Shown one piece after another: positions 1,468-19,281 of a stretch of 52,216 nucleotides of DNA. How positions within the stretch are numbered: the stretch's first letter is position 1; each line of letters begins with the position of its first letter. Below the pieces are notes generated by a model, which did no database searches, had not been told where the DNA came from, and worked only from the letters and a program-made list of their open reading frames with translations. Where the stretch lies: assembly GCA_015488295.1 (NCBI GenBank), contig WFOC01000019.1, positions 1-52,216 on the forward strand. Direction: 5' to 3'. Origin of the DNA: Gammaproteobacteria bacterium. Lineage in GTDB: Bacteria > Pseudomonadota > Gammaproteobacteria > SZUA-229. The position numbers and the translations under genes were made by a program.

Positions 1468-2910
1468 TTACAGTGCGGGAGAGTGAATCAGCATCATCTT
1501 TTCGATTTGCATATCGCGGAAAGTGTGAGGGATGCCGCCGACACCGTAGCCGGAATGTTTCAGCCCGGCGAATGGCATCCAGTCGACGCGGAAGGCAGTG
1601 TGGTCATTGACCATGACAGCGGAGGCTTCAAGCTGGTTGAAGGCGTGCATGCAGGTATCGATGTTGCTGGAAAATACCGCTGCCTGAAAAGCCACGTCCA
1701 GGCCGTTGGCGCGTGCGATAGCATCATCAATATCTTCATATTCATAAACGCAGATAACCGGGCCGAAGACTTCGTTTTGCGAGATGATGGCATCGTCCGG
1801 TGGATTGAGTAACACCGTGGCCTGGTAGCAGCTGTCAGAAATTTTTTCGCCACCGGTAATCAGTTCAGCACCTTTGTCGATGGATTCTTTTACCCACTTA
1901 TCAATGCGTTCTGTTTCGGTGTGGCGAATCAGCGGGCCGATGTCGGTATCGGCCAGTGTCGGGTCGCCGACCTTCATATTGTTGCCGGCCTCGGCAATTT
2001 TTTCCGCCAGTGTGCGGGCGATGCTTTTTTCCGCATATACCCGTTGCACCGAAACACAGACCTGACCGGCGTGATAGAAACCGGCTTTGGCTAATGCTGC
2101 CACGGTATTGTCGATGCTGGCATCCTGTGCCACGATGACCGGTGCCACGCCGCCGTGTTCCAGTGCGCAGCGGGTGCCGTTGGCCAGTTTCGAGCGCAGC
2201 ATCCAGCCCACCCGCGCACTGCCGATGAAGCTGAAAAAGCCGACACGGGGATCGGTGACCAGCTTTTCTGCAGCTTCGTGGTCGGTGGTAACGATGCCCT
2301 GGCACCAGCCTTCGGGCAGTCCGGCTTCGTATAAAATATTGATCAAGCGGAAGCAGGACAGTGGCGTGTCTTCCGCCGGTTTAATAATGACCGGGCAGCC
2401 GGCGGCTACTGCCGGGCCGATTTGATGCACTGCCAGATTGAGTGGATGATTGAAGGCGCTGACGGCGGCGACCACACCGATGGGTTCACGGGTGGTGAAG
2501 GCCAGGCGGTTCATTGAGGCAGCATTGCGGCGCATGGGGATTTCCTCGCCGTGTTCACTGCGAATGACTTCGACACAGTTTTTCATGCCGTCGATGGCAC
2601 GGGCGACTTCCACTTTGGAGTCGGCCAGCGGCTTGCCTCCTTCACGCGCGGCTTCAATGGCAAGTTCGTCAAAACGTGATTGCATGATGTCAGCAGCTTT
2701 TTCCAGAACATTGATACGCTGCTGCGCGCTCAGCCAGTTCTTTTTGTCGGCGAAAAGTTTGTGCGCTGTGGCCAGTGCAGTTTCCACTGCACTGGCATCG
2801 CCGGTTTCGATGGTCGCAATGTGCGCACCGTCATAAGGTGCGGTGACGTTGACAGTACCGGCAGCGGTGGCACCAGGAACGAGAAGTTTGAAATGGTCTG
2901 ACATGTTCAT
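1468..2910 (-). CDS. NAD(P)-dependent aldehyde dehydrogenase family protein
   Basis: 480 aa; ALDH motifs (AFNHPLNLAVHQIGPAVAAGCPVIIKPAEDTPLS, FIGSARVG, ALEHGGVAPVIV, AGQVCVSVQRVY, NEVFGPVICVYEY). Confidence 0.9.
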   Translation of the reverse strand: MNMSDHFKLLVPGATAAGTVNVTAPYDGAHIATIETGDASAVETALATAHKLFADKKNWLSAQQRINVLEKAADIMQSRFDELAIEAAREGGKPLADSKVEVARAIDGMKNCVEVIRSEHGEEIPMRRNAASMNRLAFTTREPIGVVAAVSAFNHPLNLAVHQIGPAVAAGCPVIIKPAEDTPLSCFRLINILYEAGLPEGWCQGIVTTDHEAAEKLVTDPRVGFFSFIGSARVGWMLRSKLANGTRCALEHGGVAPVIVAQDASIDNTVAALAKAGFYHAGQVCVSVQRVYAEKSIARTLAEKIAEAGNNMKVGDPTLADTDIGPLIRHTETERIDKWVKESIDKGAELITGGEKISDSCYQATVLLNPPDDAIISQNEVFGPVICVYEYEDIDDAIARANGLDVAFQAAVFSSNIDTCMHAFNQLEASAVMVNDHTAFRVDWMPFAGLKHSGYGVGGIPHTFRDMQIEKMMLIHSPAL

Positions 2911-3034: not shown

Positions 3035-4687
3035 TTAAATCGGGCAACAAATATTACCCAGCCGTTCGGTTAATAATAAATTCTCACGGTAATCAATTGG
3101 CACTACGATCAGGCTGGGACCTTCTTCGGCAAATGCCTTTTCCAGGGTGTCAATCAGGTCGCGGCTGTTTTCAACCCTGTGTCCCGACCAGCCGAATGAC
3201 TCGGCCAGTTTCAGCCAGTCCGGATTGCCGAAGGACAGGTCGGTGTGTTTGCCGAATTCGTTCTGTTGTTTCCAGGCGATCAGGCCGTACTCATGGTCTT
3301 CCCAGATCATGGTAACGATGTTGACCTTGAGCCGTTTGGCGGTTTCCATTTCCTGCACGTTCATCAGATAGCCGGCATCACCGGAAATGGAAAGAATGCG
3401 TTTTTCAGGATGGATCAGTGCGGCCGAGATAGCACCGGGCAGGGCAAAGCCCATGGAGCAGAAGCCGTTGGGAATGAGGCAGGTATTGGGCTCGTGGCAT
3501 TGATAGTGGCGCGCAATCCACATTTTGTGTGCGCCGACATCGGACAGCAGGATGTCGTGCGGCCCCATAACCTGGCGGCAGTCCCACAGAACTTTTTGCG
3601 GGCGGATGCAGCCTTCGGTGTCGTCGTCTTTGTGCATGGCGATTTCCTGCTGCATGCTGAGGCGGGTGGCTTTCTGTTCATCGCGGTCGAATGTCAGGCC
3701 GCCGTTGGCATCGACACGCTGGTTCAGCATCCACAGTGTGTGCGCCAGATCACCGATCAGCTCGGTTTTAGGGTGGTAATCGGCATCGATTTCGGCCGGC
3801 AGGAAATCGGCATGGATGATTTGCCGCCTGCGGTTTTTGTTCCACAGGCGCGGGTGGTATTCCACCATGTCGTAACCCAGGGTGATGACCACGTCGGCAT
3901 TTTCCAGGGTGCAGGCGACCACATCACGTGCCTGCAGGCCAACGGTGTACAGGCAGTAGTCGGCATCCATATCGACACAGCCCTTGGCCATGAAGGTGTT
4001 GATGACACCGATGCCGGTTTTTTCACAGAACAGGCGCAGCTGCTTGCTGGCGCGGCGACGGATGCAACCGTTGCCGGCGAGGATGATCGGGTTCTTTGCT
4101 TTTTTCAGTAATTCAAACGCCTGGTTGACGATTTTGTCGTCAGCCACCGAGCGGCGAAAACGATACGGCTCCATTGGCTCGGTGGTGGTTGGCAGTTTGG
4201 CGATGTCTTCCGGCAGTTCGATGTGGACTGCGCCGGGTTTTTCCGAGCGTGCCAGACGCACCGCCTTGCGGATGATTTCCGGGATGTTGTCCTGATGCAA
4301 AACCGTGGTGGCCCATTTGGTAACCGGCTCGAACATTTTCACCACATCCATGATCTGATGGGATTCTTTGTGCAGGCGTTGTGATGAGCCCTGGCCGGTG
4401 AGCGCCAGCATGGGGGCATGGTCCATATTGGAATCAGCAACGCCGGTAATCAGGTTGGTGGCACCGGGGCCGAGTGTGCCCAGGCAGCCGGCGGCATTGC
4501 CGGTGAGACGGCCATAGATTTCGGCCATGAATGCTGCGCCCTGTTCATGTCGGGTAAGAATAAATTTAATCTTTTCTGATTTTTCCAGTGAGATCATGAA
4601 GTCGGCATTTTCCTCGCCGGGTACGCCGAAGATATATTCGATGCCTTCTTCTTCCAGGCATTTCACAAACAGATCGGATGCTTTCAT
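3035..4687 (-). CDS. Acetolactate synthase large-subunit-like thiamine pyrophosphate enzyme
   Basis: 550 aa; TPP enzyme motifs (MKASDLFVKCLEEEGIEYIFGVPGEENADFM, RHEQGAAFMAEIYGRLTG, GPGATNLITGVADSNMDHAPMLALTGQ, ISGDAGYLMNVQEMETA). Confidence 0.88.
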   Translation of the reverse strand: MKASDLFVKCLEEEGIEYIFGVPGEENADFMISLEKSEKIKFILTRHEQGAAFMAEIYGRLTGNAAGCLGTLGPGATNLITGVADSNMDHAPMLALTGQGSSQRLHKESHQIMDVVKMFEPVTKWATTVLHQDNIPEIIRKAVRLARSEKPGAVHIELPEDIAKLPTTTEPMEPYRFRRSVADDKIVNQAFELLKKAKNPIILAGNGCIRRRASKQLRLFCEKTGIGVINTFMAKGCVDMDADYCLYTVGLQARDVVACTLENADVVITLGYDMVEYHPRLWNKNRRRQIIHADFLPAEIDADYHPKTELIGDLAHTLWMLNQRVDANGGLTFDRDEQKATRLSMQQEIAMHKDDDTEGCIRPQKVLWDCRQVMGPHDILLSDVGAHKMWIARHYQCHEPNTCLIPNGFCSMGFALPGAISAALIHPEKRILSISGDAGYLMNVQEMETAKRLKVNIVTMIWEDHEYGLIAWKQQNEFGKHTDLSFGNPDWLKLAESFGWSGHRVENSRDLIDTLEKAFAEEGPSLIVVPIDYRENLLLTERLGNICCPI

Positions 4688-5513: not shown

Positions 5514-6287
5514 TTAAGGCTTAAGGCCAACGCCCAGGCGCAACAGTCGCAGTGCAAAATAATACAGCACCACGATAAACGCGATGATGATAATGAACGC
5601 GTTTGCTACCTCGATATCACTCACCCCCAGTATGCCGTAATGAAACGCGTTCACCATGTACAGAATGGGGTTGGCCAGTGAGACCTGCTGCCAGATTTCA
5701 GGCAGCATCTTGATTGAATAAAAAACCCCGCCGAGATAGATCAGCGGGGTTAAGACAAAGGTCGGGATGATGGTGATGTCATCAAAACTTCTGGCGTAGG
5801 CGGCGTTGATGAAGCCGGCCAGCGAGAATAAAACCGAGGTCAGGATCACCACCGAAAAAGTTACCAGATAGCTGTGAACCTGCAGGTCTGAAAAATACAT
5901 CGATACCACGGTTGCGACAAAACCGACGATCAGGCCGCGGGCGACACCACCGGCAACAAAGCCGAGCAGGATGATGTTGTTCGGCAGCGGCGAGACCAGC
6001 ATTTCTTCCACGCTGTGATGAAATTTGGCGCTGAAAAAAGATGACACCACGTTGGCGTAGGAATTGGTGATCACCGCCATCAGGATCAGGCCGGGCACGA
6101 TGTAATCCATGTATTTGTAACCGTTGATGTCGCTGATCTGGCTGCCGATGACCTGGCCGAAAATAATAAAATACAGCGCGATGGTGATTGCTGGCGGCAG
6201 GATAGTCTGTATCCAGATGCGGATGAAGCGCAGGTATTCCTTGATGAAAATGGTCTTCAGTGCGACCATCTGCTGGCTGAAATTCAT
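5514..6287 (-). CDS. ABC-2 type transporter permease (YadH-like)
   Basis: Start at MNFSQQMVALKTIFIKEYLRFIRIWIQTILPPAITIALYFIIFG; membrane-spanning, adjacent to and overlapping the ATPase gene. Confidence 0.88.
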   Translation of the reverse strand: MNFSQQMVALKTIFIKEYLRFIRIWIQTILPPAITIALYFIIFGQVIGSQISDINGYKYMDYIVPGLILMAVITNSYANVVSSFFSAKFHHSVEEMLVSPLPNNIILLGFVAGGVARGLIVGFVATVVSMYFSDLQVHSYLVTFSVVILTSVLFSLAGFINAAYARSFDDITIIPTFVLTPLIYLGGVFYSIKMLPEIWQQVSLANPILYMVNAFHYGILGVSDIEVANAFIIIIAFIVVLYYFALRLLRLGVGLKP

Positions 6288-7225
6288 GTCCGGCTTCCTT
6301 CTTGATTGCTGTTGTTTTTGTTGTTTGTCATCGAGATGAACAGCTGTTCCAGCCGGTTGGTTTTGTTCTTCATGCTCACCACTTCGATGTCGCATTTATG
6401 CAGTGCCTGAAAAACGTCGCTGATGTTCTGCTGTTGATTGATGTCGACTTCCAGCGTGGTTTCATCGATCAGCCTGACCACGTGTGCGCCACAGTCGGGC
6501 AGGGTATTGATGGCCTTGCTCAGATACAGGATAAAGGTTTCGACGTGCAGCCGGTCCAGTAGCGAGCGCATCTGTGTTTGCTCGATGGTGATGCCGTGGT
6601 CGATGATGGCGATGTTGTTGCACAGGCTTTCGGCCTCTTCCAGATAGTGCGTGGTGAGGATGATGGTGGTGCCTTCCTCGTTGACCTGTTTTAAAAACTT
6701 CCACATGGAATGGCGAATCTCGATATCGACACCGGCGGTGGGCTCGTCGAGGATAAGTAATTTTGGCCGGTGCATCAGCGCGCGTGCGATCATCAGCCGC
6801 CGCTTCATGCCACCGGAAAGCTCTTTTGCTATGTCGAAACGCTTGTCCCACAGGTCGAGCTGTTTCAGATAGGTCTCGGCGCGGTGGCTGGCTTCCTTGC
6901 GGTTGATGCCGTAGTAGCCGGCCTGGTTAATCAAAATTTCGCGGATTGGTTCGAAGATGTTGAAATTGAATTCCTGTGGCACCAGGCCGATGTGCATGCG
7001 TACACCGGCAGAGTCTTTGTCCAGATCGTGACCGAATACCTCGACCTTGCCGGCGGTTTTGGTGACCAGTGAGCAGATGATGCCGATAGCGGTAGATTTA
7101 CCGGCACCGTTGGGACCGAGCAGGGCAAAGAAGTCCCCCTGTTTCACCGTGAGATCGACACCTTTAAGCGCATTTACGCCATTTTTATAGGTCTTTTGTA
7201 GATTTTTAATGTCCAGTGCGTTCAA
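6284..7225 (-). CDS. ABC transporter ATP-binding protein (YadG-like)
   Basis: 313 aa; Walker A GPNGAGKST, signature LSGGMKRR, Walker B LLILDEPTAG. Confidence 0.93.
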   Translation of the reverse strand: MNALDIKNLQKTYKNGVNALKGVDLTVKQGDFFALLGPNGAGKSTAIGIICSLVTKTAGKVEVFGHDLDKDSAGVRMHIGLVPQEFNFNIFEPIREILINQAGYYGINRKEASHRAETYLKQLDLWDKRFDIAKELSGGMKRRLMIARALMHRPKLLILDEPTAGVDIEIRHSMWKFLKQVNEEGTTIILTTHYLEEAESLCNNIAIIDHGITIEQTQMRSLLDRLHVETFILYLSKAINTLPDCGAHVVRLIDETTLEVDINQQQNISDVFQALHKCDIEVVSMKNKTNRLEQLFISMTNNKNNSNQEGSRT

Positions 7226-7392
7226 TGTATGGTGTCTGCGGTGGTTATTCGGGTTGTTTTATGGGGCGCTGTGATGTTACAGTATTCGCATTAGTAATAC
7301 GACCGTCTAACATTTTTCTGTGCAAGTATTTTCAGTGCTCTGCCGTCAGGTATAGGCGTTCGCATCGTTTTCAATGTTGGTGAGTGATTTTT

Positions 7393-7965
7393 ATGGGTAC
7401 TAAAGGTGAAGGTAATCGACAGCGCATCATTGATGCAGCGGATGATCTTTTTTACAGACGTGGCTACAACCAGACTTCTTTTCAGGATATTTCTGATGCC
7501 ACCGGCATTCCACGTGGCAACTTTTATTACTACTTCAAAACAAAAGATGAAATTCTTAATGCGGTTGTTAACTCTCGCATTGCCGGTTTAAACACCATAT
7601 TAAATCAGTGTGAACTTGAAACTGATGATGCCAGGGAGCGTCTGCTGTTGTTTAGCGATATGCTGGATTTCAGGCGTGATGATGTGGTTCAGTCGGGTTG
7701 CCCGATTGGCAGTCTCAGTTCTGAGCTGGCGAAAGATGATACTGAATTGCACGAGGTTTCCCGTCAGGCATTTGTGCTGTTGCGTGACTGGATCAGGTTA
7801 CAGTTTGAAACGCTGGGTCTAGGCAATGCTGACGATCTGGCGATGGATCTGCTTGCCAGAATGCAGGGGGTGACGGTGATGGCCTGTGCCTTTAAAGATG
7901 TCGAATTTGTTAAACGCAGTCATCAGGAAGTCAAAGACTGGATCAAGGCAAAAACATTGAATTGA
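7393..7965 (+). CDS. TetR/AcrR family transcriptional regulator
   Basis: MGTKGEGNRQRIIDAADDLFYRRGYNQTSFQDISDATGIPRGNFYYYFKTKDEIL: classic TetR HTH. Confidence 0.92.
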   Translation: MGTKGEGNRQRIIDAADDLFYRRGYNQTSFQDISDATGIPRGNFYYYFKTKDEILNAVVNSRIAGLNTILNQCELETDDARERLLLFSDMLDFRRDDVVQSGCPIGSLSSELAKDDTELHEVSRQAFVLLRDWIRLQFETLGLGNADDLAMDLLARMQGVTVMACAFKDVEFVKRSHQEVKDWIKAKTLN

Positions 7966-8762: not shown

Positions 8763-9545
8763 TCAAGCCTGTTTTTGTTCTGTTCCTAAAACTATTCCAT
8801 ATTGCTGTAATTCCTGCAATGCAGCCAGTCCACCCTGTTTTACAACTTCAGGCCTGGGGTGTTGCATCTCTTTGCTGATGTGTTTGATTGCATCCAGACC
8901 GGTATATGATGTGTTTTCCTGCAGCAGGCTGATCAGTCGTGCGCTGACCTGATTGATTTCAAGAAAGTGAACTTCGTCATTGCGGTTGCGATAAACCACC
9001 AGGTAAGTGGCCTGTGCGGGGACTTCTTTCGGCAGCTTGTCCGGCCCCATGGTGTGCACCGGAAACTGATAGACCAGCGGCCAGGCCAGTGGTGAAAATA
9101 CCGGACGGCGTGCGAGCAGGTCGCCATTGGCATCGATGTTTTCCATGCTGATGGTTTCATCGGATACGTGCAGCGCCAGCTCTACCCATTCGTAATGCGC
9201 CAGTTCGACCAGGCTGGCGGGGAGGCCGGCGGGATCATTTTCATCGGGCAATCGTTCGTTTTGCAGGTAATCGATAAATTCCTGCGTAATTTCGAGAAAG
9301 TAGGGGGAGCGGCTTCGGTGTCTGGCAAAAAAATCACGCACCATCCGGTGCCAGTTTTTATCATCATAGATTTCACGCAGCACAGGAAAACCACTGGCGA
9401 TAAAACTTTCGATGTTGTTATACAGCAGGTCACGATAGATCGCCATGCGCCGGTCTTCGATACCTTCGGGTATGGCGTTCTTTTTCGGGTCGCGCAGGTG
9501 TGCGGTAAATGCGAACTGGTGTTTTGTGAAAGCAGGTAACGTCAT
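8763..9545 (-). CDS. hvfC: HvfC-type RiPP maturation partner (DUF2063 family)
   Basis: MTLPAFTKHQFAFTAHLRDPKKNAIPEGIEDRRMAIYRDLLYNNIESFIASGFPVLREIYDDKNWHRMVRDFFARHRSRSPYFLEITQEF: DUF2063 N-domain hallmark; directly downstream of the DUF692 gene. Confidence 0.88.
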   Translation of the reverse strand: MTLPAFTKHQFAFTAHLRDPKKNAIPEGIEDRRMAIYRDLLYNNIESFIASGFPVLREIYDDKNWHRMVRDFFARHRSRSPYFLEITQEFIDYLQNERLPDENDPAGLPASLVELAHYEWVELALHVSDETISMENIDANGDLLARRPVFSPLAWPLVYQFPVHTMGPDKLPKEVPAQATYLVVYRNRNDEVHFLEINQVSARLISLLQENTSYTGLDAIKHISKEMQHPRPEVVKQGGLAALQELQQYGIVLGTEQKQA

Positions 9546-9550
9546 GGTGT

Positions 9551-10423
9551 TTATGCCGGCATGCTTTTTGTAGCTGGTGGTGCCTGCCACCGGCTTTGTG
9601 TTTCGGCGATCTGTTTGACTTCGAGCAGTAACTCGGGCACCGCGGGAATATTGAAATCACGTTCCAGCAAGGTCGGGAATACGCCGAAGTGCTGGTAGGC
9701 TTTTTGCAGAATATGCCACACCGGGTCGATGACATCAGCGCCGTGGGTATCCACGATTAAATCTTCGGCTTCATTATAATGCCCGGCGATGTGTGCGTAA
9801 CGAATGCGTCTGGCGGGCAGTTGTGTTAAAAATTCGATAGCATCGTAACCGTGGTTGATCGAGTTTACATAGATGTTGTTCACGTCCAGCAGCAGGCCGC
9901 AGTCAGCTTCGTCCAGCACGGCGTTAATGAATTCGATTTCGCGCATCTCCGAACCCGGTGCCGGTGTGTAATACGAGGCGTTCTCCATGGAAATTTCCTG
10001 TTGCAGAATATCCTGCACCCGGCGGATGCGTGCAGCGACATAATGTACCGCTTCTTCGGTGAATGGAATTGGCAGCAGGTCGTACAGGTGGCCATTGTCG
10101 GAACAGTATGTGAGGTGTTCTGAATAATGTTTAACACCGTGTGTTTTCATAAAAGCACCGATGTCCCTGACAAAACTTTCATCCAGCGGTGCCGGGCTGC
10201 CGATTGATAAGGAAAGCCCGTGGCAGAGAAAATTATATCGCTCGGTGAACTGGCGGAATTTTTTGCCGAGGCTGCCGCCGACGTTGATCCAGTTCTCCGG
10301 TGCAACTTCCATAAAGTTGACTGGTGACAGATTATCGGCCTGCATCGCTGTCAGCATCTCATCGAGTTTTTCTCTGCGCAGTCCCAGGCCTGCACCGGAA
10401 ACGGGGTATTGTTGCTTTGTCAT
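9551..10423 (-). CDS. hvfB: HvfB-type MNIO (DUF692) RiPP-modifying oxidative enzyme
   Basis: 290 aa; DUF692 motifs (MEVAPENWINVGG, CHGLSLSIGSPAPLD, YSEHLTYC, LLLDVNNIYVNSINHGYDA, YAHIAGHY, DTHGADVIDPVWHIL). Confidence 0.92.
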   Translation of the reverse strand: MTKQQYPVSGAGLGLRREKLDEMLTAMQADNLSPVNFMEVAPENWINVGGSLGKKFRQFTERYNFLCHGLSLSIGSPAPLDESFVRDIGAFMKTHGVKHYSEHLTYCSDNGHLYDLLPIPFTEEAVHYVAARIRRVQDILQQEISMENASYYTPAPGSEMREIEFINAVLDEADCGLLLDVNNIYVNSINHGYDAIEFLTQLPARRIRYAHIAGHYNEAEDLIVDTHGADVIDPVWHILQKAYQHFGVFPTLLERDFNIPAVPELLLEVKQIAETQSRWQAPPATKSMPA

Positions 10424-10444
10424 CGTTCTTTTCTGCTCAGACTT

Positions 10445-11053
10445 TTATTGCCCGCACGGTTTAAATTTTTTGCTGATCAGGTAATCGAGGCTGGCTTTGC
10501 CCGGGCCGATGAAAAACAGCACCAGCAGCATGATGGAATAGGTAGCGGCAAACTCGATGCCGTTGTTCAATATAACAAAGTTCCCGTTTTCGGTCAGCCA
10601 GTCGTAATTGCCGTGTTCACGTAAAATATCTTTGGCGATGTCCAGGCGCTCGATGGCACCGGCGGTTCGGTCGCTGGCAAAAAAACCGGAACCTTCAGCG
10701 ATAGCCAGCCAGCCGTTTTGCAGATGCACGCTGACCGCAGCGACAACCATGGTGATGAACAGCGGGATAGATGCCCAGCGTGTCGCCAGACCAAGCAGTA
10801 ACAGGATGGCTCCACCGACTTCAGTTAGTGTTGCCAGCCATGCCATTAATGCGGGAAAGGGCAGGCCAAGCCCCCAGTCCGGATTACCAAACCAGGCGAT
10901 GATGCTATCCATATCGGCCAGTTTTTTTGTTCCGGCCATCCAGAAAATCGGCACCAGATATAAACGCAGTGCAAGCGGTCCAAGAAAATCAACGGTACGT
11001 GTTGCGTCGAGAAGTGACTGTGCCTTGCAGCCGAAAGATATGAGCTTGTTCAT
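10445..11053 (-). CDS. hvfX: HvfX-like DoxX family membrane protein of the RiPP cluster
   Basis: 202 aa, DoxX-like (ALRLYLVPIFWMAGTKKL, LTEVGGAILLLLGLATRWASIPLFITMVVA), adjacent to the hvfB-like gene. Confidence 0.82.
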   Translation of the reverse strand: MNKLISFGCKAQSLLDATRTVDFLGPLALRLYLVPIFWMAGTKKLADMDSIIAWFGNPDWGLGLPFPALMAWLATLTEVGGAILLLLGLATRWASIPLFITMVVAAVSVHLQNGWLAIAEGSGFFASDRTAGAIERLDIAKDILREHGNYDWLTENGNFVILNNGIEFAATYSIMLLVLFFIGPGKASLDYLISKKFKPCGQ

Positions 11054-11152
11054 AGTTTTGCTGTCCCTGAGAATTTATTGCGCGCCAGGATGGTTAAGCA
11101 GTTGACCGCGCATTGCGCCTGATAGTTCACAAACGTGTATAAAAAGCCGGCT

Positions 11153-12655
11153 TTATGCTTTCGGGGTTTTGTCCGGATAAATATCAGCCAGCATGGTAGA
11201 GGTGCCGTTTTGCTGCACGATGCGTACGTGCCGCCGGCTTAGTTCGCGTGGTTGATGTACGCCGCAGGAATGCGCAATGATGCCGACTTCGTAACTGATG
11301 TTTTTGATGTAATTGGCGATGCGAGTTGATTTTTGTTCGGCGACCAGGCCGCGTTGCAGTTTTTTATCGTGTGTGGTGATGCCGGTGGGGCAGGTGTTTT
11401 GATGACATTGCAGCGCCTGAATACAGCCCAGTGAAAACATAAAGCCGCGTGCTGAAGTGATAAAGTCTGCGCCGACACACAGTGCCCAGGCGACTTCTGC
11501 CGGGTTAATCAGCTTGCCCGAGGCGATGACTTTGATTCTGTCACGCAGGCCCGCTTCATGAATTTTATCGATGACGCGAGGCAGGCTTTCGTTAATTGGC
11601 ATGCCAACGTAATCAATCAGGCTCATGGGTGCGGCACCGGTGCCGCCGTCGGCGCTGTCGATGGTAATGAAATCGGGCGCGAATTCCTTGCCGCGTTTAT
11701 TGACTGCAGCGAGAAATTCGCCCATCCATATTTTGTCACCGATCACGGCTTTGAAACCGACCGGTTTGCCGGTGACTTTACGCACGTGGTTGATCATGTC
11801 GATCAGGTCATCGTTGTTTTCAATCTCCGGGTGACGGTTCGGGCTGATGGAATCCTCACCCATCGGAATGCCGCGAACGTTTGCGATATCCGCGCTGACT
11901 TTGGCCGCGGGCAAAATACCGCCTTTGCCGGGTTTTGCACCCTGTGACATTTTTATTTCGAACATGCGTACGGTTTCATGGGCAGCAATCTCGCGCAGCT
12001 TTTCATCGGACAGGTTGCCGTCCTTGTCGCGCACACCGTATTTTGCCGTGCCGATCTGAAACACGATGTCTGCGCCGCCTTCCAGGTGATACGGTGATAG
12101 TCCGCCTTCACCGGTGTTTATCCAGGCGCTGGCTTTTTTCGCGCCGTAAGACAAAGCCTGTATCGCGGGTTTGGAGATAGCGCCGTAACTCATGCCGGAG
12201 ATATTAAAAAATGAATGTGCGGTATAAGGTATGTCGGCTGTTTTTTCGCCGATGATAACCGGCTTGCAGTTGACGGCTTCTTTACCCAGTGTGGGGAATG
12301 CGGTGTTGACAAAAAGCACCGAGCCGGCGGGTCTCAGGTCGCGTGTTGAACCGAAGGCAACAATATTTTCAATGTCCTTGGCTGCGCGATACACCCATGA
12401 TCGCTGTGCACGATTGAAAGGCATTTCCTCGCGATCCATGCTGAAAAAATACTGGCGAAAGAAAGTGCCGATGTGTTCAAAATAATAGCGGAAGTGGCCG
12501 ATGACAGGGTAGTTTCTACGAATTGTCTGTTTGGTCTGGGTGACATCGGCGATGTAAACACCGATAAGAAACAGAATGAAGATGCCGGCTGAAAAAATAA
12601 AAATGGTTGCCATCCAGCCTATTACTTCATGTCCAAACGCTTCCCCGGAAAACAT
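11153..12655 (-). CDS. FMN-binding glutamate synthase family protein, N-terminally membrane anchored
   Basis: 500 aa; GltB FMN-domain motifs (NISGMSYGAISKPAIQALSYGAKKA, NTGEGGLSPYHLEGGADIVFQIGTAKYGVRD, SQGAKPGKGGILPAAKV, ITIDSADGGTGAAP, CHQNTCPTGITT); hydrophobic N-terminal helix WMATIFIFSAGIFILFLIGVYIA. Confidence 0.92.
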   Translation of the reverse strand: MFSGEAFGHEVIGWMATIFIFSAGIFILFLIGVYIADVTQTKQTIRRNYPVIGHFRYYFEHIGTFFRQYFFSMDREEMPFNRAQRSWVYRAAKDIENIVAFGSTRDLRPAGSVLFVNTAFPTLGKEAVNCKPVIIGEKTADIPYTAHSFFNISGMSYGAISKPAIQALSYGAKKASAWINTGEGGLSPYHLEGGADIVFQIGTAKYGVRDKDGNLSDEKLREIAAHETVRMFEIKMSQGAKPGKGGILPAAKVSADIANVRGIPMGEDSISPNRHPEIENNDDLIDMINHVRKVTGKPVGFKAVIGDKIWMGEFLAAVNKRGKEFAPDFITIDSADGGTGAAPMSLIDYVGMPINESLPRVIDKIHEAGLRDRIKVIASGKLINPAEVAWALCVGADFITSARGFMFSLGCIQALQCHQNTCPTGITTHDKKLQRGLVAEQKSTRIANYIKNISYEVGIIAHSCGVHQPRELSRRHVRIVQQNGTSTMLADIYPDKTPKA

Positions 12656-12771
12656 TTTCGCCCCTGTTTTTATAATTTTTGAATCTGGTTTTTTATTTTA
12701 TTGCTTGTTTGATAATAGATGGTTTTTCAGGAATATTATAATGGCATGGTTTTTTTGTATTAAGGTTGTGC

Positions 12772-12806
12772 AATAAAAAAGCCCCGTGTACCGAGGCTTT
12801 TTTATT
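12772..12806 (-). terminator. Rho-independent terminator-like hairpin just downstream of the RiPP precursor gene
   Basis: aataaaaaagcc-ccgtgtaccga-ggcttttttatt: 12 bp complementary arms, A/T tracts on both sides (bidirectional form). Confidence 0.75.
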
Positions 12807-12833
12807 ATTCAGATTGTGCTGGTCGAAGCAGGT

Positions 12834-13163
12834 TTACATGTTACCGCCGCATTTGCCTTCGCCGCATTTACCTTCTTTTTTCATTTTCATTTTTTTGCTT
12901 TCGCCGCCACATTTTCCGTCCATCTCTTTTTTGTGGGCTTCACCGCATTTGGCTTCTTTGGCTTTTTCTTTCTTCATCTTCATTTTGCCTTCGCCACATT
13001 TACCTTCGCCGCATTTGCCTTCAGCAACCTGCATGTATCCTCGTTCCATGTTCTGCATGCCGAATGGGTTTGTATCAGCGTTAGCTACAGGTGATGCTGC
13101 CATTGCTGCAACAAAAGTTGTGCCCAGAGCAGCGGACAGTGATTTTTTCATAGTGTTTTTCAT
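12834..13163 (-). CDS. hvfA: HvfA-type RiPP metallophore precursor with EGKCG repeats and Sec signal peptide
   Basis: 109 aa: MKNTMKKSLSAALGTTFVAAMAASPVANA signal, then NPFGMQNMERGYMQVA and core EGKCGEGKCG...EAKCG...DGKCG...EGKCGEGKCGGNM; same strand as hvfX/B/C-like genes. Confidence 0.9.
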   Translation of the reverse strand: MKNTMKKSLSAALGTTFVAAMAASPVANADTNPFGMQNMERGYMQVAEGKCGEGKCGEGKMKMKKEKAKEAKCGEAHKKEMDGKCGGESKKMKMKKEGKCGEGKCGGNM

Positions 13164-13232: not shown

Positions 13233-13261
13233 CAAAGACAATACGGTTTTTTGATAGTTCA
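13233..13261 (-). promoter_or_regulatory. Candidate ECF-sigma-type promoter upstream of the precursor gene
   Basis: Minus strand: GTGAACTATCAAAAAACCGTATTGTCTTTG; GAACT-like -35 and TCT-containing -10 with about 16 nt spacing, about 70 nt before the ATG. By eye only. Confidence 0.3.
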
Positions 13262-13292: not shown

Positions 13293-13721
13293 TCATTTAT
13301 TAATCAATTTTTTGAGGCATTCTAAATAGGCTGCTTCATCGGGCGTGGTCTGATTTCGCTGTGCCAGCCACAGGGCTTCGCCCAGGCATTCCATCATTTC
13401 ATGTTCGGCATCGTGCGGGCCGCCGTAGCGCAGGCATAATTTCTGGTAGCAATCGTGGATACCGTCGGGGCGGTTAGTGCTGATCTGCTCGTGCAGTGCA
13501 ATATGCATGCTCATGTGCAGGAAAGGGTTGCTCTCGCCGGTCTCGGCAGAAAAATCTTTATTGATGCTGTCTTCATCTTCAAGCAGCTGGTGATACTCCG
13601 GGTGCATCTCGACAATGTTGCCGACAACTTCCTGCATTGGATCCATCGGCAGCCTGTTTTTTTTCAGTTGCCAGCAGCTGAGATAGACCTGGCGTAATTC
13701 GTTTCTGTTGTTGCCGAACAT
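13293..13721 (-). CDS. DUF1841 family protein
   Basis: 142 aa; MFGNNRNELRQVYLSCWQLKKNRLPMDPMQEVVGNIVEMHPEYHQLL...NPFLHMSMHIALHEQISTNRPDGI is characteristic; lies near nth. Confidence 0.87.
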   Translation of the reverse strand: MFGNNRNELRQVYLSCWQLKKNRLPMDPMQEVVGNIVEMHPEYHQLLEDEDSINKDFSAETGESNPFLHMSMHIALHEQISTNRPDGIHDCYQKLCLRYGGPHDAEHEMMECLGEALWLAQRNQTTPDEAAYLECLKKLINK

Positions 13722-14062
13722 AATGAGGGCGTTTTTGTTGTTGGGAAGCCTGAATTGTATTTTGATTTAGTTTTGATTGCCAGTGCCGTTTAAAGAAGCG
13801 TGCGGAAAAAAAGGGCCAGATACTGGAAATACAAGGTGCAGGAAATAAAAATAGCTGAAAAAAAGCCTGTTTGAATACACGAAAAATTCCCTGTAAAAAC
13901 GCGGGTAATGTGTTTGAGTGAATGATATATTCATGGCCGTGCAGCATTTGTTCTGTGACAGAACAACTGAGCGCTGCCTAACTTGTTTGTTAAGGCATTA
14001 AGTGCCGATAAAAGCAAAGTATCTGTGTGGTTTCGGTGAGACATGAAAACAGTTTTTTGCAT

Positions 14063-14446
14063 ATGAAAAAAATAATACGTCATTATCTGCTTGTTATCGG
14101 TGGCTGGATCTGTGTTGTGCTGGGCCTGATTGGTGTGGTGTTGCCGGTGTTTCCCACGACTCCGTTCCTGATTGTTGCACTGGCGTTTTTTTCAAAAAGC
14201 TCGCCGCGCTTTCATCGCATGCTGCTGAATAATCGCTGGTTCGGGCCGGTTTTAAAGCAGTGGGAAGAAACAAAAACCCTGTCACGAAAAGTGAAGTACA
14301 AGGTTTATTTTCTGGTTGTTGTAGCCTTTTTAATATCGATTTCCATTCTTCATGGCAGAGTGCAGCTTCAGTTGTTACTGGTTGCTCTGGCGGCTGTTCT
14401 ACTGTTTTTTATCTGGCGCATCAAGGAAGACCCTGCGCAGGACTAG
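14063..14446 (+). CDS. YbaN/DUF454 family inner membrane protein
   Basis: MKKIIRHYLLVIGGWICVVLGLIGVVLPVFPTTPFLIVALAFFSKSSPRFHRMLLNNRWFGPVL: DUF454 pattern. Confidence 0.88.
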   Translation: MKKIIRHYLLVIGGWICVVLGLIGVVLPVFPTTPFLIVALAFFSKSSPRFHRMLLNNRWFGPVLKQWEETKTLSRKVKYKVYFLVVVAFLISISILHGRVQLQLLLVALAAVLLFFIWRIKEDPAQD

Positions 14447-14449
14447 CGC

Positions 14450-15082
14450 TTATTCTGTTTTGTTTCTGTACTCGCACAGGTCTTCAATAAGGCATGAACC
14501 GCACCGTGGTTTGCGTGCGATGCAGGTATACCGTCCCAGCAGAATCAGCCAGTGGTGTGCGTCTACCAGAAATTCTTCTGGAATAAATTTCAGCAGTTTT
14601 TTTTCAACTTCCAGTACATTTTTTCCCGGCGCAATCTTTGTGCGGTTTGAAACGCGGAAGATGTGTGTGTCGACAGCCATGGTCGGGTGGCCGAAGGCGG
14701 TGTTGCGTACTACGTTGGCAGTTTTTCTGCCGACACCGGGCAGGGCTTCCAGTTTTTTCTGATCGTCGGGCACGATGCTGTTGTGTTCGTCGATTAATAT
14801 CCTGCAGGTTTTGATGATGTTTTTTGCTTTGCTGTTGTACAGGCCGATGGTTTTTATATATTCCTTCAGGCCGTCTTCGCCGAGCGCATAAATAGCTTCA
14901 GGTGTGTTGGCCACCGGGAAAAGTTTTGCCGTGGCGAGGTTAACGCCTTTGTCGGTGGCCTGTGCGGACAGAATAACCGCGATCAGTAATTCAAAGGTGG
15001 AATTAAAGTTGAGTTCGGTGGTGGGTTTCGGGTTATCTTTTCGCAAGCGGGAAAAGATTTCATGGCGCTTTGTTTTGTTCAT
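14450..15082 (-). CDS. nth: Endonuclease III
   Basis: MNKTKRHEIFSRLRKDNPKPTTELNFNSTFELLIAVILSAQATDKGVNLATAKLF...LPGVGRKTANVV, CX6CX2CX5C-type FeS C-terminus (CIARKPRCGSCLIEDLC). Confidence 0.96.
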   Translation of the reverse strand: MNKTKRHEIFSRLRKDNPKPTTELNFNSTFELLIAVILSAQATDKGVNLATAKLFPVANTPEAIYALGEDGLKEYIKTIGLYNSKAKNIIKTCRILIDEHNSIVPDDQKKLEALPGVGRKTANVVRNTAFGHPTMAVDTHIFRVSNRTKIAPGKNVLEVEKKLLKFIPEEFLVDAHHWLILLGRYTCIARKPRCGSCLIEDLCEYRNKTE

Positions 15083-15098
15083 GAGAAAAACTATTTTT

Positions 15099-15178
15099 TC
15101 CACAGATGAGCGCAGATGAACACGGATAAAAGCTTAAAGCTGTTTTTAAATCTGCGTTTATCTGTGTTCATCTGTGGA
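15099..15178. repeat. Second copy of ccacagatgaacacagataaa inverted repeat
   Basis: tccacagatgagcgcagatgaacacggataaa ... tttatctgtgttcatctgtgga between nth and rnfE. Confidence 0.85.
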
Positions 15179-15210
15179 TTAATGTTTTTTAATTTTAAAG
15201 TGTGAATCAC

Positions 15211-15906
15211 TTAATTTGCGACAGGTTCAATGCTCTGAATAGTCACAGTCTGCCGTGTGCGCTGGCGTTTATCGATGATGTTTTTAAGTGCGATGAGCAA
15301 ACCCAGGCCGATGAACGCACCGGGTGGTAACACGGCAAGCAGGAAGCCGGGGTAGTCTTCGCTGAAAGTGATGGTCATGGCGTGTCCGATGTCGCCGAAC
15401 ATAAGTTGTGCGTTGGCGAACAGGGTGCCGAAGCCGATGATTTCACGCATGCCGCCAAGTACCATCAGCACCAGGGTAAAGCCCAGTCCCATCATAAACC
15501 CATCGAGTGCGGAATCCAGCACATTGTTTTTTGATGCGAAGGCTTCGGCACGGGCGATGATGGAACAGTTGGTGACAATCAGCGGAATGAAGATGCCGAG
15601 TACCAGATACAGCTCGTGGAACCAGGCGTTCATACTGAGTTCGATAGCGGTGACGATGGAAGCGATGATCAACACAAAAATGGGAATGCGGATTTCAGGT
15701 TTCAACCAGGGGCGTGCCAGAGAAACGATGCTGTTGGACAGCACCAGTGTGATCAGTGTTGCTACGCCGAGTCCCAGACCGTTGATGATGGTGCCGGTAA
15801 CCGCGAGCAGGGGGCACAGACCGAGTAACTGAACCAGGGCAACGTTGTTGTTCCACAGTCCGTTTTTGCTGATGTTTAATGCCTGGCTTGTTTGATCGTT
15901 GCTCAT
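15211..15906 (-). CDS. rnfE: Electron transport complex subunit RnfE
   Basis: 231 aa; [39 protein letters not shown]; in the rnfABCDGE order. Confidence 0.96.
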
Positions 15907-16574
15907 GATTTTTTTACCGGCTCGCTGGTTTCTTTATCAGTGGCTTGTTTGCTAAACAATGTTTCCTGATGCTGGTCGAAGTATAACAAAGCGTTGTGCA
16001 CGGCTTTCACTACCGCGCGCGGGGTGATGGTGGCACCGGTGAACTGGTCGAAGACACCGCCGTCACGTTTTACTTTCCAGCCGTTTTCATTCGGGTTGCT
16101 GAGTGATTTATTATTAAAGCCCAGTATCCAGTTTGAGCGTGAAATATCAACAACATCACCAAGACCGGGTGTCTCACGGTGTTTTATTACACGTACGCCG
16201 GATAGTGTGCCGTCAGCTTTTACGCCAACCAGCAGCTGGATGGAACCGTTGTAACCGTTGGGTGCAATGCTGGTAAAAACCACGGCGACATTTTTGTTAC
16301 CTTTTCTGGCGCGATAGGCCAGTGAGTCTTCTTTGGTGTTGAGCAGGTAATCAGGTTTGATGACGATGGTGTCGAGCAGCAGGTTGTTATCATAAATATC
16401 TGCCGGGATGATGTTGTTTAATTTACGCAGCAGGGTGAGTTCTTCATTGTGCTTGATAGCCTCTTTGGTTTTGTTGAATGTCAGGCCGACAAGTGCAGCG
16501 CCCAGTGCGGCCACCAGCATGAGCAATGATGCGGTTATGGCAATATTTTTTATTTGTTGGCTGGAAAAATTCAT
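15903..16574 (-). CDS. rnfG: Electron transport complex subunit RnfG (FMN-binding)
   Basis: 223 aa; FMN-attachment region [26 protein letters not shown] (S/T-GAT motif). Confidence 0.95.
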
Positions 16575-16589
16575 ACTGGTTTCGGGGTT

Positions 16590-17648
16590 TTATTTATCCG
16601 GGTCGCCGTACACTTTTGGCTGTGTGTAATAGTCGATCAGTGGCGCTGCCATGTTCATCAGTACCACGGCGAAAGCGATGCCGTCCGGGTAGCCGCCCCA
16701 GCTGCGAATGATGTATACCAGCGCGCCGATGCAGGCACCGTAGATCCAGCGACCTCTTGGTGTGGTGCTGGCAGTGACCGGATCGGTGGCGATAAAAAAG
16801 GCGCACAACATGGTGCCGCCGCTGAAAATATGAAACAGTGATGAGCTGTTGGTGGCGTAATCCATCACGGCAAAAATATTAGAGATAAAAATCAGGCTGA
16901 TCAGAAAAGCGGTGGGGATGCGCCAGTCGATGACATTTTTTTTGATCAGCCAGATGCCGCCGCCAAGAAATAAAAGATTGATCCACTGCCAGCCGGTGCC
17001 GCTGATGCTGGAAAACAGCGGGCTGTATTCGACGTTGTTGCGGGTTTCGATCACGTCATGAAACTGGTTGAGCTGGGTCTTGATCAGGTCAATCGGTGTG
17101 GCCATGGAAATACTGTCGATGCTTGCGCCACCGGGAAGCTGCCCCAGAAACACCCAGTTGAAAGTGGTGCTGAAATCCGGCCAGCCGCTGCTATCTCCAA
17201 GCGTAACGCCCAGCGGTGCTGACCACATGGTCATCTCGCGCGGGAATGAGATCATAACCACGATATAACCGACCATGGCCGGGTTAAACGGGTTGAAGCC
17301 CAGACCACCGTACAGATGTTTGGCCATGGCTATTGCAGAAATGGAGGCGATGACGGTGATCCACCACGGCGCTAACGAAGGCAGCGCCAGTGCCAGCAGG
17401 CAGGCAGTGAGCAGGGCGCTGCCATCCAGTAGCGAATCGGTGACATTGCGTTTCCGCAGTTTAAGAATGATGGCTTCGGTGCTCAGGCAGACGCTGATGG
17501 CGATCAGCAGGTTAAACAAAACGCCCCAGCCGAAAAAGTAGATAGCTGCCAGGGTGCCGGGAATCAGCGCGTACAGCACGTTGTACATCATGTCCTGAAC
17601 GGAGATGTCCTGCTTGATGTGCGGCGATGGTGTGCGTTTGAATAACAT
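16590..17648 (-). CDS. rnfD: Electron transport complex subunit RnfD
   Basis: 352 aa; LFKRTPSPHIKQDISVQDMMYNVLYALIPGTLAAIYFFGWGVL, FNPFNPAMVGYIVVMISFPREMT, SGGTMLCAFFIATDPVTASTTPRGRWIYG. Confidence 0.96.
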   Translation of the reverse strand: MLFKRTPSPHIKQDISVQDMMYNVLYALIPGTLAAIYFFGWGVLFNLLIAISVCLSTEAIILKLRKRNVTDSLLDGSALLTACLLALALPSLAPWWITVIASISAIAMAKHLYGGLGFNPFNPAMVGYIVVMISFPREMTMWSAPLGVTLGDSSGWPDFSTTFNWVFLGQLPGGASIDSISMATPIDLIKTQLNQFHDVIETRNNVEYSPLFSSISGTGWQWINLLFLGGGIWLIKKNVIDWRIPTAFLISLIFISNIFAVMDYATNSSSLFHIFSGGTMLCAFFIATDPVTASTTPRGRWIYGACIGALVYIIRSWGGYPDGIAFAVVLMNMAAPLIDYYTQPKVYGDPDK

Positions 17649-17652
17649 TTAT

Positions 17653-19281
17653 TTATTCCGCCTCTTTGTTTTTATTTCTTTCGGCTTTCTTTGCCTGCGC
17701 ACGGGCGATGGCTTCGGCGATAACGGCGCGTTTGTTATCGGTGTCACTTTTTGATTTACCATTTTCAGAATCGCTGGCGGCGGCATCGTCTGCTTTCTTC
17801 TTTAACAGCTCGCGTTTTTTGCGCAGTTTTTCTTCGCGTTCCTGTTTTATTTTTTCCAGCCGGCGCTGGTGTGCTTCGTGGCGCTCGCGTGAGATGTCGG
17901 AAGCGCGGCGTTCACGTTCCTGCTGCCATATCAGGGTTTTTGCGTGACGGTAATACTGTACCAGAGGAATGTCGCTGGGGCAGACATAGGCGCAGCAGCC
18001 GCATTCGATGCAGTCGAACAGGTTGTGTTCCTGCAGGCGGTCAACATTGTGGCTGCTGGCGTACCAGTATAGCTGTTGTGGCAGCAAGCGTACCGGGCAA
18101 ACCTCGACACATTTGCCGCAGCGGATGCAGGGCATGTGTTTTTCTTTGTGCGGGTTGTCTTCTTTTGCTGTGACCAGCAGACAGTTGCTGGCTTTGACCA
18201 CGGGCAGGGCATCGGTGTTGAGAGAAAAGCCCATCATCGGACCGCCCATAATAAGTTCGTCGCTGTTTTCTGTGTAGCCGCCACAGTGTTCGATGCAGGC
18301 CTGCATTGGTGTGCCGATCAGGACTTCGATGTTCTGTGGTTTTTTTACGCCGTGACCGGTGACGGTGACGATGCGAGAGATCAGTGGTTCAGCGTGATGT
18401 ATCGCGCGGTGGACGGTGTAGGCGGTGGCGACATTGTGGCACAGTATGCCAAGCTCTACCGGGTAATGGCCTTTTGGCACTTCCTTGCCGGTGATGATTT
18501 GTATCAGTTGTTTCTCGCCGCCGCTGGGGTATTTGGTAGGGATAACCTGAATGCTGAAAAAGCCGGTGCCATCCTGATCGATGGCTGACTGCATGGCGGC
18601 AATGGCTTCGGGTTTGTTGTCTTCAATAGCAATGATGCAGCGCCGGGCCTTGATAATGTGGCCGATAATGTCTGCGCCGGAGATAATTTCTCCGGCACGC
18701 TCGCGCATCAGCATGTCGTCGCAGGTGATATAGGGTTCGCATTCCACGCCGTTGAGCAGCAGGGTGTTAACGTCGGTTTCAGTCTGCTTGACTGAGGACG
18801 GGAAGGTTGCGCCCCCCAGGCCAACAATGCCGGAATCACGTATGATTTTGCGTAGATCGGATGAGTTTTTGTGGTTGTACTCAGCGCCCAGTGGCTGACG
18901 TTCCTGCCACTCATCCTTAAAGTCGTTTTCAATAAAGACACACAGATCAGATAAGCCGGAAATGTGCGGGACTTCATGCTGTGCAATATCGGTGACGGTG
19001 CCGGAGACCGGTGCATGTACAGCAGCGCTTAACAGGTCGCCGGGGCGGGCCAGCATTTGCCCTTTCAAAACCCGGTCGCCGACTTTTACCATCGGCTGGC
19101 TGATGACACCGATGTGCTGCTGTAACGGCACAATATATTGCTTGCATGGTTCCATGTCAGCAATTGGTTTTGTTGTAGACAGGCTTTTATATGCGTCCAG
19201 AGTCAGGCCGCCATTAAATTTACTCAGGTGCGGGGTGATGGTGGCTGCGCTGTTGTGTTTCATCTTAATGGATTCTGTCAT
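17653..19281 (-). CDS. rnfC: Electron transport complex subunit RnfC
   Basis: 542 aa; GLGGATFPSSVK, two [4Fe-4S] motifs CIRCGKCVEVCPVRL and CIECGCCAYVCPSDIPLVQYYRHAK, charged Ala/Lys-rich tail. Confidence 0.96.
   Translation of the reverse strand: MTESIKMKHNSAATITPHLSKFNGGLTLDAYKSLSTTKPIADMEPCKQYIVPLQQHIGVISQPMVKVGDRVLKGQMLARPGDLLSAAVHAPVSGTVTDIAQHEVPHISGLSDLCVFIENDFKDEWQERQPLGAEYNHKNSSDLRKIIRDSGIVGLGGATFPSSVKQTETDVNTLLLNGVECEPYITCDDMLMRERAGEIISGADIIGHIIKARRCIIAIEDNKPEAIAAMQSAIDQDGTGFFSIQVIPTKYPSGGEKQLIQIITGKEVPKGHYPVELGILCHNVATAYTVHRAIHHAEPLISRIVTVTGHGVKKPQNIEVLIGTPMQACIEHCGGYTENSDELIMGGPMMGFSLNTDALPVVKASNCLLVTAKEDNPHKEKHMPCIRCGKCVEVCPVRLLPQQLYWYASSHNVDRLQEHNLFDCIECGCCAYVCPSDIPLVQYYRHAKTLIWQQERERRASDISRERHEAHQRRLEKIKQEREEKLRKKRELLKKKADDAAASDSENGKSKSDTDNKRAVIAEAIARAQAKKAERNKNKEAE

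Follow-up and report, generated by a model that had tools for sequence, protein, structure and literature searches.

An FMN/GltS-like flavoprotein gene linked to hvfX in oxazolin-type metallophore clusters of Gammaproteobacteria

MNIO metallophore clusters occur widely among Pseudomonadota, where one such cluster is a virulence factor. Two described systems stand closest to the locus treated here, oxazolin from Haemophilus influenzae (hvfABCX) and fontiphorin from Fontimonas thermophila. Like our locus, both have an EGKCG precursor with a Sec signal, an HvfB-type MNIO, a DUF2063/RRE protein and HvfX (PMC13097082, PMC13419390). The modification made by HvfBC in these relatives has been assigned as 5-thiooxazole, and HvfABC suffice for it in E. 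coli (PMC13097082, PMC13419390). The enzyme pair needs a reductant, which was DTT in vitro, its activity requires a mixed-valent diiron state, and HvfX has been called uncharacterised (PMC13419390). The bufferin clusters (DUF2282 precursor, BufABC plus DoxX) share the MNIO, DUF2063 and DoxX genes.

The window, by which we mean the whole stretch of DNA that was analysed, is 52,216 nucleotides long and comes from a Gammaproteobacteria bacterium. A sequence-only reading of it had placed five genes in a row on the minus strand, and all five open reading frames were confirmed in the order hvfA, F, hvfX, hvfB, hvfC. F is our label for the FMN/GltS-like gene between hvfA and hvfX (11153..12655). The EGKCG-repeat precursor peptide is encoded by hvfA (12834..13163), a DoxX-like membrane protein by hvfX (10445..11053), the MNIO (DUF692) peptide maturase by hvfB (9551..10423), and its DUF2063/RRE partner by the adjacent hvfC (8763..9545). 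The start of hvfC is the ATG at 9545; the mechanically listed reading frame begins at an upstream GTG, 9590. Measured against the NCBIfam equivalogs, HvfB scores 431.7 bits (NF003818, cut-off 360), HvfC 314 bits (NF050145, cut-off 142) and HvfX 231.5 bits (NF050144, cut-off 80), and hvfB is the sole MNIO gene of the host assembly. Since all three proteins pass their cut-offs and the precursor pattern is common to family relatives, the locus is, on the strength of its sequence, an oxazolin-type (EGKCG) MNIO RiPP metallophore cluster, which bears out the Hvf assignment made earlier. The same reading called the gene order unusual, and there we disagree: A-(F)-X-B-C is the norm in the family, and relatives without F read A-X-B-C.

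The window nevertheless departs from oxazolin and fontiphorin in its gene order, in the presence of F between the precursor and hvfX, in a terminator added after hvfA and in two ECF-type promoter candidates. It differs from bufferin in its EGKCG-type precursor and in its MNIO, which scores as HvfB and reaches 259.5 bits with the BufB model, below the cut-off of 310. Directly upstream and on the same strand lie rnf, nth and DUF1841 (13293-19281, minus), the gene for the DUF1841 protein (13293..13721) being a conserved flank between nth and hvfA. Beyond hvfC, again on the minus strand, come an acetolactate synthase large subunit of the PRK08322 type at a distance of about 4 kb (3035..4687; 737.6 bits, cut-off 509) and an aldehyde dehydrogenase of unassigned substrate at about 6 kb (1468..2910); in other loci both genes recur beside F. 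An ABC-2 type exporter (ATPase plus permease, 5514-7225, minus) and a TetR-like regulator (7384-7965, plus) sit between hvfC and the acetolactate synthase gene. They could encode an exporter of drugs or metals and its regulator, and the exporter ATPase gene turns up again past the cluster in many loci of the family.

The HvfA precursor passes the KCGExKCG domain model (38.6 bits, cut-off 19.5), stays below the cut-off of the full-length HvfA equivalog (40.8 bits against 95) and has no Pfam match. Its Sec-type signal ends in ANA before DT, an AxA-type site, and four of its six cysteines lie in exact EGKCG motifs. The HvfA proteins of family relatives have a signal peptide, the conserved mature start NPFGMQ..L..GYMQ.AEGKCG, and then cysteine repeats. 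By analogy with the described systems, HvfA here is probably a secreted, copper-binding peptide. The oxazolone or thioamide groups once expected at its cysteines have been replaced by the 5-thiooxazole assignment (PMC13097082, PMC13419390), and the mass shift of -4 Da per Cys that went with them stays valid for the new structure.

What kind of protein is F? It is 500 aa long and matches Pfam Glu_synthase (PF01645) with 297.5 bits, covering only the central FMN/Fe-S part of GltS, residues about 850-1190; against the GltB equivalog it scores 140.8 bits, with a cut-off of 1047. What it has in common with glutamate synthase (GltB and the ferredoxin-dependent GltS) is the FMN barrel, the three cysteines of the cluster and a portion of the substrate pocket. 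However, glutamate synthases have about 1,500 residues, whereas F has no glutaminase (class II amidotransferase) domain by Pfam, NCBIfam or alignment to GltS, no GltD partner gene beside it, and a membrane helix at its N-terminus. C411, C417 and C422 of F are invariant and align with C1137, C1143 and C1148 of Synechocystis GltS (1llw/1ofd), which we take to be the ligands of its [3Fe-4S] cluster. At what are presumably the substrate-site positions of GltS, K241, R261 and E183 are kept in F, and I247 and K244 are changed. The hydrophobic N-terminal helix is followed by basic residues, which points to anchoring in the membrane, with a cytoplasmic domain. We thus predict from these features a membrane-anchored FMN/[3Fe-4S] flavoprotein. 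The AlphaFold2 model is used for the fold alone because its mean pLDDT is moderate (73.7) and it is poor at the cofactor loops; a Foldseek search with it ranks glutamate synthases first. Proteins of the same layout, an N-terminal helix plus a Glu_synthase domain, are numerous in the class as the stand-alone "FMN-binding glutamate synthase family protein", but the ortholog group of F differs from these in being linked to MNIO metallophore genes.

We believe it very probable that this link is functional. Among 369 genomes drawn evenly from Gammaproteobacteria, F occurs in 127, hvfB over its cut-off in 117 and both in 57 (odds ratio 2.5, p = 1.5e-4). F and hvfB lie no more than 7 kb apart in 26 of the 57 genomes with both, on the same strand in all 26, and these genomes span 15 family codes; the chance expectation, by our own estimate for genomes of about 3 Mb, is well below one. 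A search for F beside Hvf genes in relatives, proposed in the sequence-only reading, is therefore strongly positive. That reading had wavered between an added redox component and a simple insertion, and recurrence in many families favours the first over the second. In the order to which the window belongs, 27 of 54 genomes carry an F ortholog, which adjoins hvfX in 25 of 26 distinct loci and shares the strand of hvfB/hvfC where these are present. The F paralogs of this order, of about 42% identity, include one in the host itself (G000:C88, 42%). None of them shares its contig with an hvfB gene, and the link is therefore particular to the ortholog group of the window's F.

Within hvf loci the steadiest neighbour of F is hvfX. 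The two genes are adjacent in 48 of the 57 loci with hvf linkage, across at least six gene orders, which include A-F-X-B-C, A-B-C-F-X, A-B-C-X-F, A-B-F-X-C, A-B-C-ALS-ALDH-F-X and A-ALS-F-X-B-C. F also stands alone in many genomes (72 unlinked loci), and no HvfX-like gene was detectable at any unlinked F locus. Most hvf clusters of the class carry no linked F, and many have hvfX without F, some of them from the family of the window; G010, a close relative, has the cluster and lacks F. A quick tree of 137 F proteins needs 13 changes of hvf linkage, at least five of them forced by starred branches, and the 26-row clade of the window is entirely hvf-linked. The long branches of L162 and L182 meet in this tree and many forks are open, so the count of independent linkage origins is uncertain.

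The promoter layout sets F apart from its neighbours. An intrinsic terminator, a hairpin plus T run, directly follows hvfA on the minus strand (12777..12801), between hvfA and F; such terminators follow hvfA in 26 of 31 family loci, against 33 of 620 shuffles (5%). We searched for the ECF-type motif GAACT-N14..18-GTC, and it yields ECF/sigma-E-like promoter candidates for hvfA (13237..13260, minus, GAACT-N16-GTC) and for hvfX-B-C (11104..11128, minus, GAACT-N17-GTC). Of the family loci, 21 of 28 have the motif ahead of hvfA (shuffled, 0.4%) and 30 of 39 have it ahead of hvfX (0.7%). None of 25 has it ahead of F, it precedes neither hvfB nor hvfC, and it is nearly absent from other families (hvfA 1 of 21, hvfX 3 of 28). 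Both sites remain candidates identified solely by motif position and conservation in the family; as a window-wide signal the motif was rejected, with 4 matches against 4.4 expected. The host has RpoE over cut-off. F has a sigma-70-like promoter candidate of its own just past the hvfA terminator (12735..12763, minus, TTAATA-N17-TATAAT), which with 10 of 12 matches is the best in the region, where sites of this kind are about as frequent as in shuffled sequence. Because the ECF-type motif precedes both hvfA and hvfX and not F, the gene lies between two seemingly co-regulated units. An unrelated promoter for F had been named as evidence against its involvement, and our results go part of the way there, since F lacks the motif of its neighbours and has a site of another type. 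At L152, L153, L154 and L158 the conserved hvfA promoter region overlaps, by eye, a Fur-box-like sequence, for example GAGAATGATTGTCATTATT in L154; iron control would be added there.

Loci that have lost part of the cluster are informative. Four loci from sister genera (L142-L145) read A-F-X and have no hvfB or hvfC, and in three of these A-F-X genomes (G050, G052 and G027, all about 99% complete) nothing in the whole genome matches MNIO or DUF2063. At L142 the genes past X resemble, by eye, those past hvfC in the window, which suggests an otherwise syntenic locus that lacks B-C; L145 stops at a contig edge. KCG motifs are fewer or more variable at L143 and L145, as if the substrate motif were relaxing. 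A second kind of locus comes from Colwellia sp. MB3u-41 (L241), where F and a Na+/H+ exchanger gene come after the genes for a DUF2282 bufferin precursor, BufB, a DUF2063 protein and DoxX. F therefore accompanies the DoxX gene in both metallophore families.

Because F pairs with X, A-F-X loci persist without B-C, F also lies beside the bufferin DoxX, and HvfBC need a reductant (PMC13419390), we tentatively favour a redox partnership: F would be an accessory partner of HvfX in the metallophore cluster, a reading in which our belief and our doubt are close to balanced. Accessory is the proper word because HvfBC modify HvfA in E. coli without F. As in its relatives, HvfBC would convert the cysteines of Sec-exported HvfA to copper-binding 5-thiooxazoles. 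F, facing the cytoplasm, would take electrons from a cytosolic donor, for which ferredoxin and the neighbouring Rnf complex are candidates; ferredoxin is one because Rnf genes are nearby and F is homologous to the ferredoxin-dependent GltS. As a redox pair with HvfX, F would exchange electrons with HvfX or the quinone pool. The pair would then support the metallophore system, for example through reduced precursor thiols or MNIO iron, or through the handling of copper stress, and would not itself install the thiooxazole. Linkage, variation in gene order, the pattern of loss and the promoter layout are observed, the cofactors are predicted, and the electron path and substrate are inferred. Against this partnership, F has none of the ECF-type promoter candidates that precede hvfA and hvfX, F also stands alone in many genomes, many hvf clusters carry X without F, and HvfABC function in E. 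coli without F (PMC13097082, PMC13419390).

The most serious alternative is metabolic. F would belong to a metabolic or pH/redox stress module with acetolactate synthase, aldehyde dehydrogenase, the Na+/H+ exchanger and DoxX. It would act on a small metabolite, for example an amino acid or an oxo acid, and the module would lie beside hvf genes because copper or related stress calls for both. We consider this possible but rather unlikely. It stays alive because these three enzymes and transporters recur beside F. Genes for the PRK08322-type acetolactate synthase and the aldehyde dehydrogenase are found next to F both within hvf clusters (L138-L141, L163-L165, L167, L178) and outside them, and both are on the strand of F in the window. 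In 23 loci from other groups, in and outside hvf clusters, the exchanger gene comes after F and shares its strand (L160, L161, L164-L167, L177-L179, L181, L183, L190, L191, L209, L217, L222, L231, L235, L239, L241, L256, L262 and L273). The partly kept GltS pocket would suit a small metabolite too. Since F occurs alone, or with acetolactate synthase or aldehyde dehydrogenase outside hvf clusters, its basic reaction need not concern the metallophore. Against a metabolic module, no gene stays closer to F in hvf loci, or does so more regularly, than hvfX, which is detected at no unlinked F locus; the sister genera retain F with hvfA and hvfX after the loss of B-C, and F has neither a glutaminase domain nor an adjacent GltD gene. 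A common context for stand-alone F was sought and rejected: the 68 distinct unlinked loci have none, and acetolactate synthase, aldehyde dehydrogenase or the exchanger is present in a minority. An F paralog of 40% identity adjoins a PRK08322 acetolactate synthase at G039:C22 and G041:C224, so the pairing of a GltS-like protein with this enzyme may predate the hvf link. In Thiodiazotropha and related symbionts (L185, L207, L210) an acetolactate synthase-F pair is divergent from a BufB/BufC-type MNIO cluster.

F might instead be a maturation factor proper, which either reduces the iron site of HvfB in vivo or tailors the peptide as an enzyme. The need of HvfBC for a reductant and a mixed-valent diiron state (PMC13419390) makes a cluster-encoded, predicted FMN/Fe-S electron carrier a candidate for the first of these roles. 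We nonetheless find the idea improbable, given that HvfABC suffice in E. coli, that a linked F is missing from most hvf clusters of the class, and that F is retained with hvfA and hvfX in genomes without an MNIO.

The position of the locus must be considered as well. The rnf-nth-DUF1841 neighbourhood of the window is common to L123-L176, L217, L222 and L276, which include relatives without F. The rnf-nth genes precede 30 of the 57 hvf loci that bear F, against 0 of 72 unlinked F loci. The locus is therefore old at this site in several families, its interior has been rearranged and F has been kept, and for the same reason the families do not count as fully independent cases. Rnf may supply electrons, or the rnf neighbourhood could be only old synteny. 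That shared site, together with the F-less cluster of G010, is what would let F be a chance insertion hitch-hiking at an old syntenic position with no functional tie to the cluster, and we regard this as very improbable because F stays there though the internal order differs between families, the linkage is found at other sites too, the F tree forces at least five of its 13 changes, the Colwellia bufferin cluster is a separate case, and no F paralog of the order is on an hvfB contig.

The cluster type is already known; as far as we found, a GltS-like partner of such clusters is apparently undescribed. None appears in the main texts of the two cluster surveys or in a full-text search, and the papers found on copper stress and glutamate synthase deal with other systems. 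If F is the accessory redox partner of HvfX that we favour, the metallophore clusters have a conserved flavin/Fe-S partner of HvfX which is common to the oxazolin and bufferin types and persists after the MNIO is lost. The role of HvfX and the in vivo reductant of the MNIO then become directly testable through F, and the conserved promoter pair with the precursor terminator gives a testable model of regulation. A bolder and doubtful idea, which we think has little chance of being right, is that F and HvfX form a redox system acting on EGKCG cysteine peptides without any MNIO. If that were true, the A-F-X loci of the sister genera would be a second use of the same metal-binding precursor from which the thiooxazole step has been lost, and the flavoprotein/DoxX pair would be what remains at work there.
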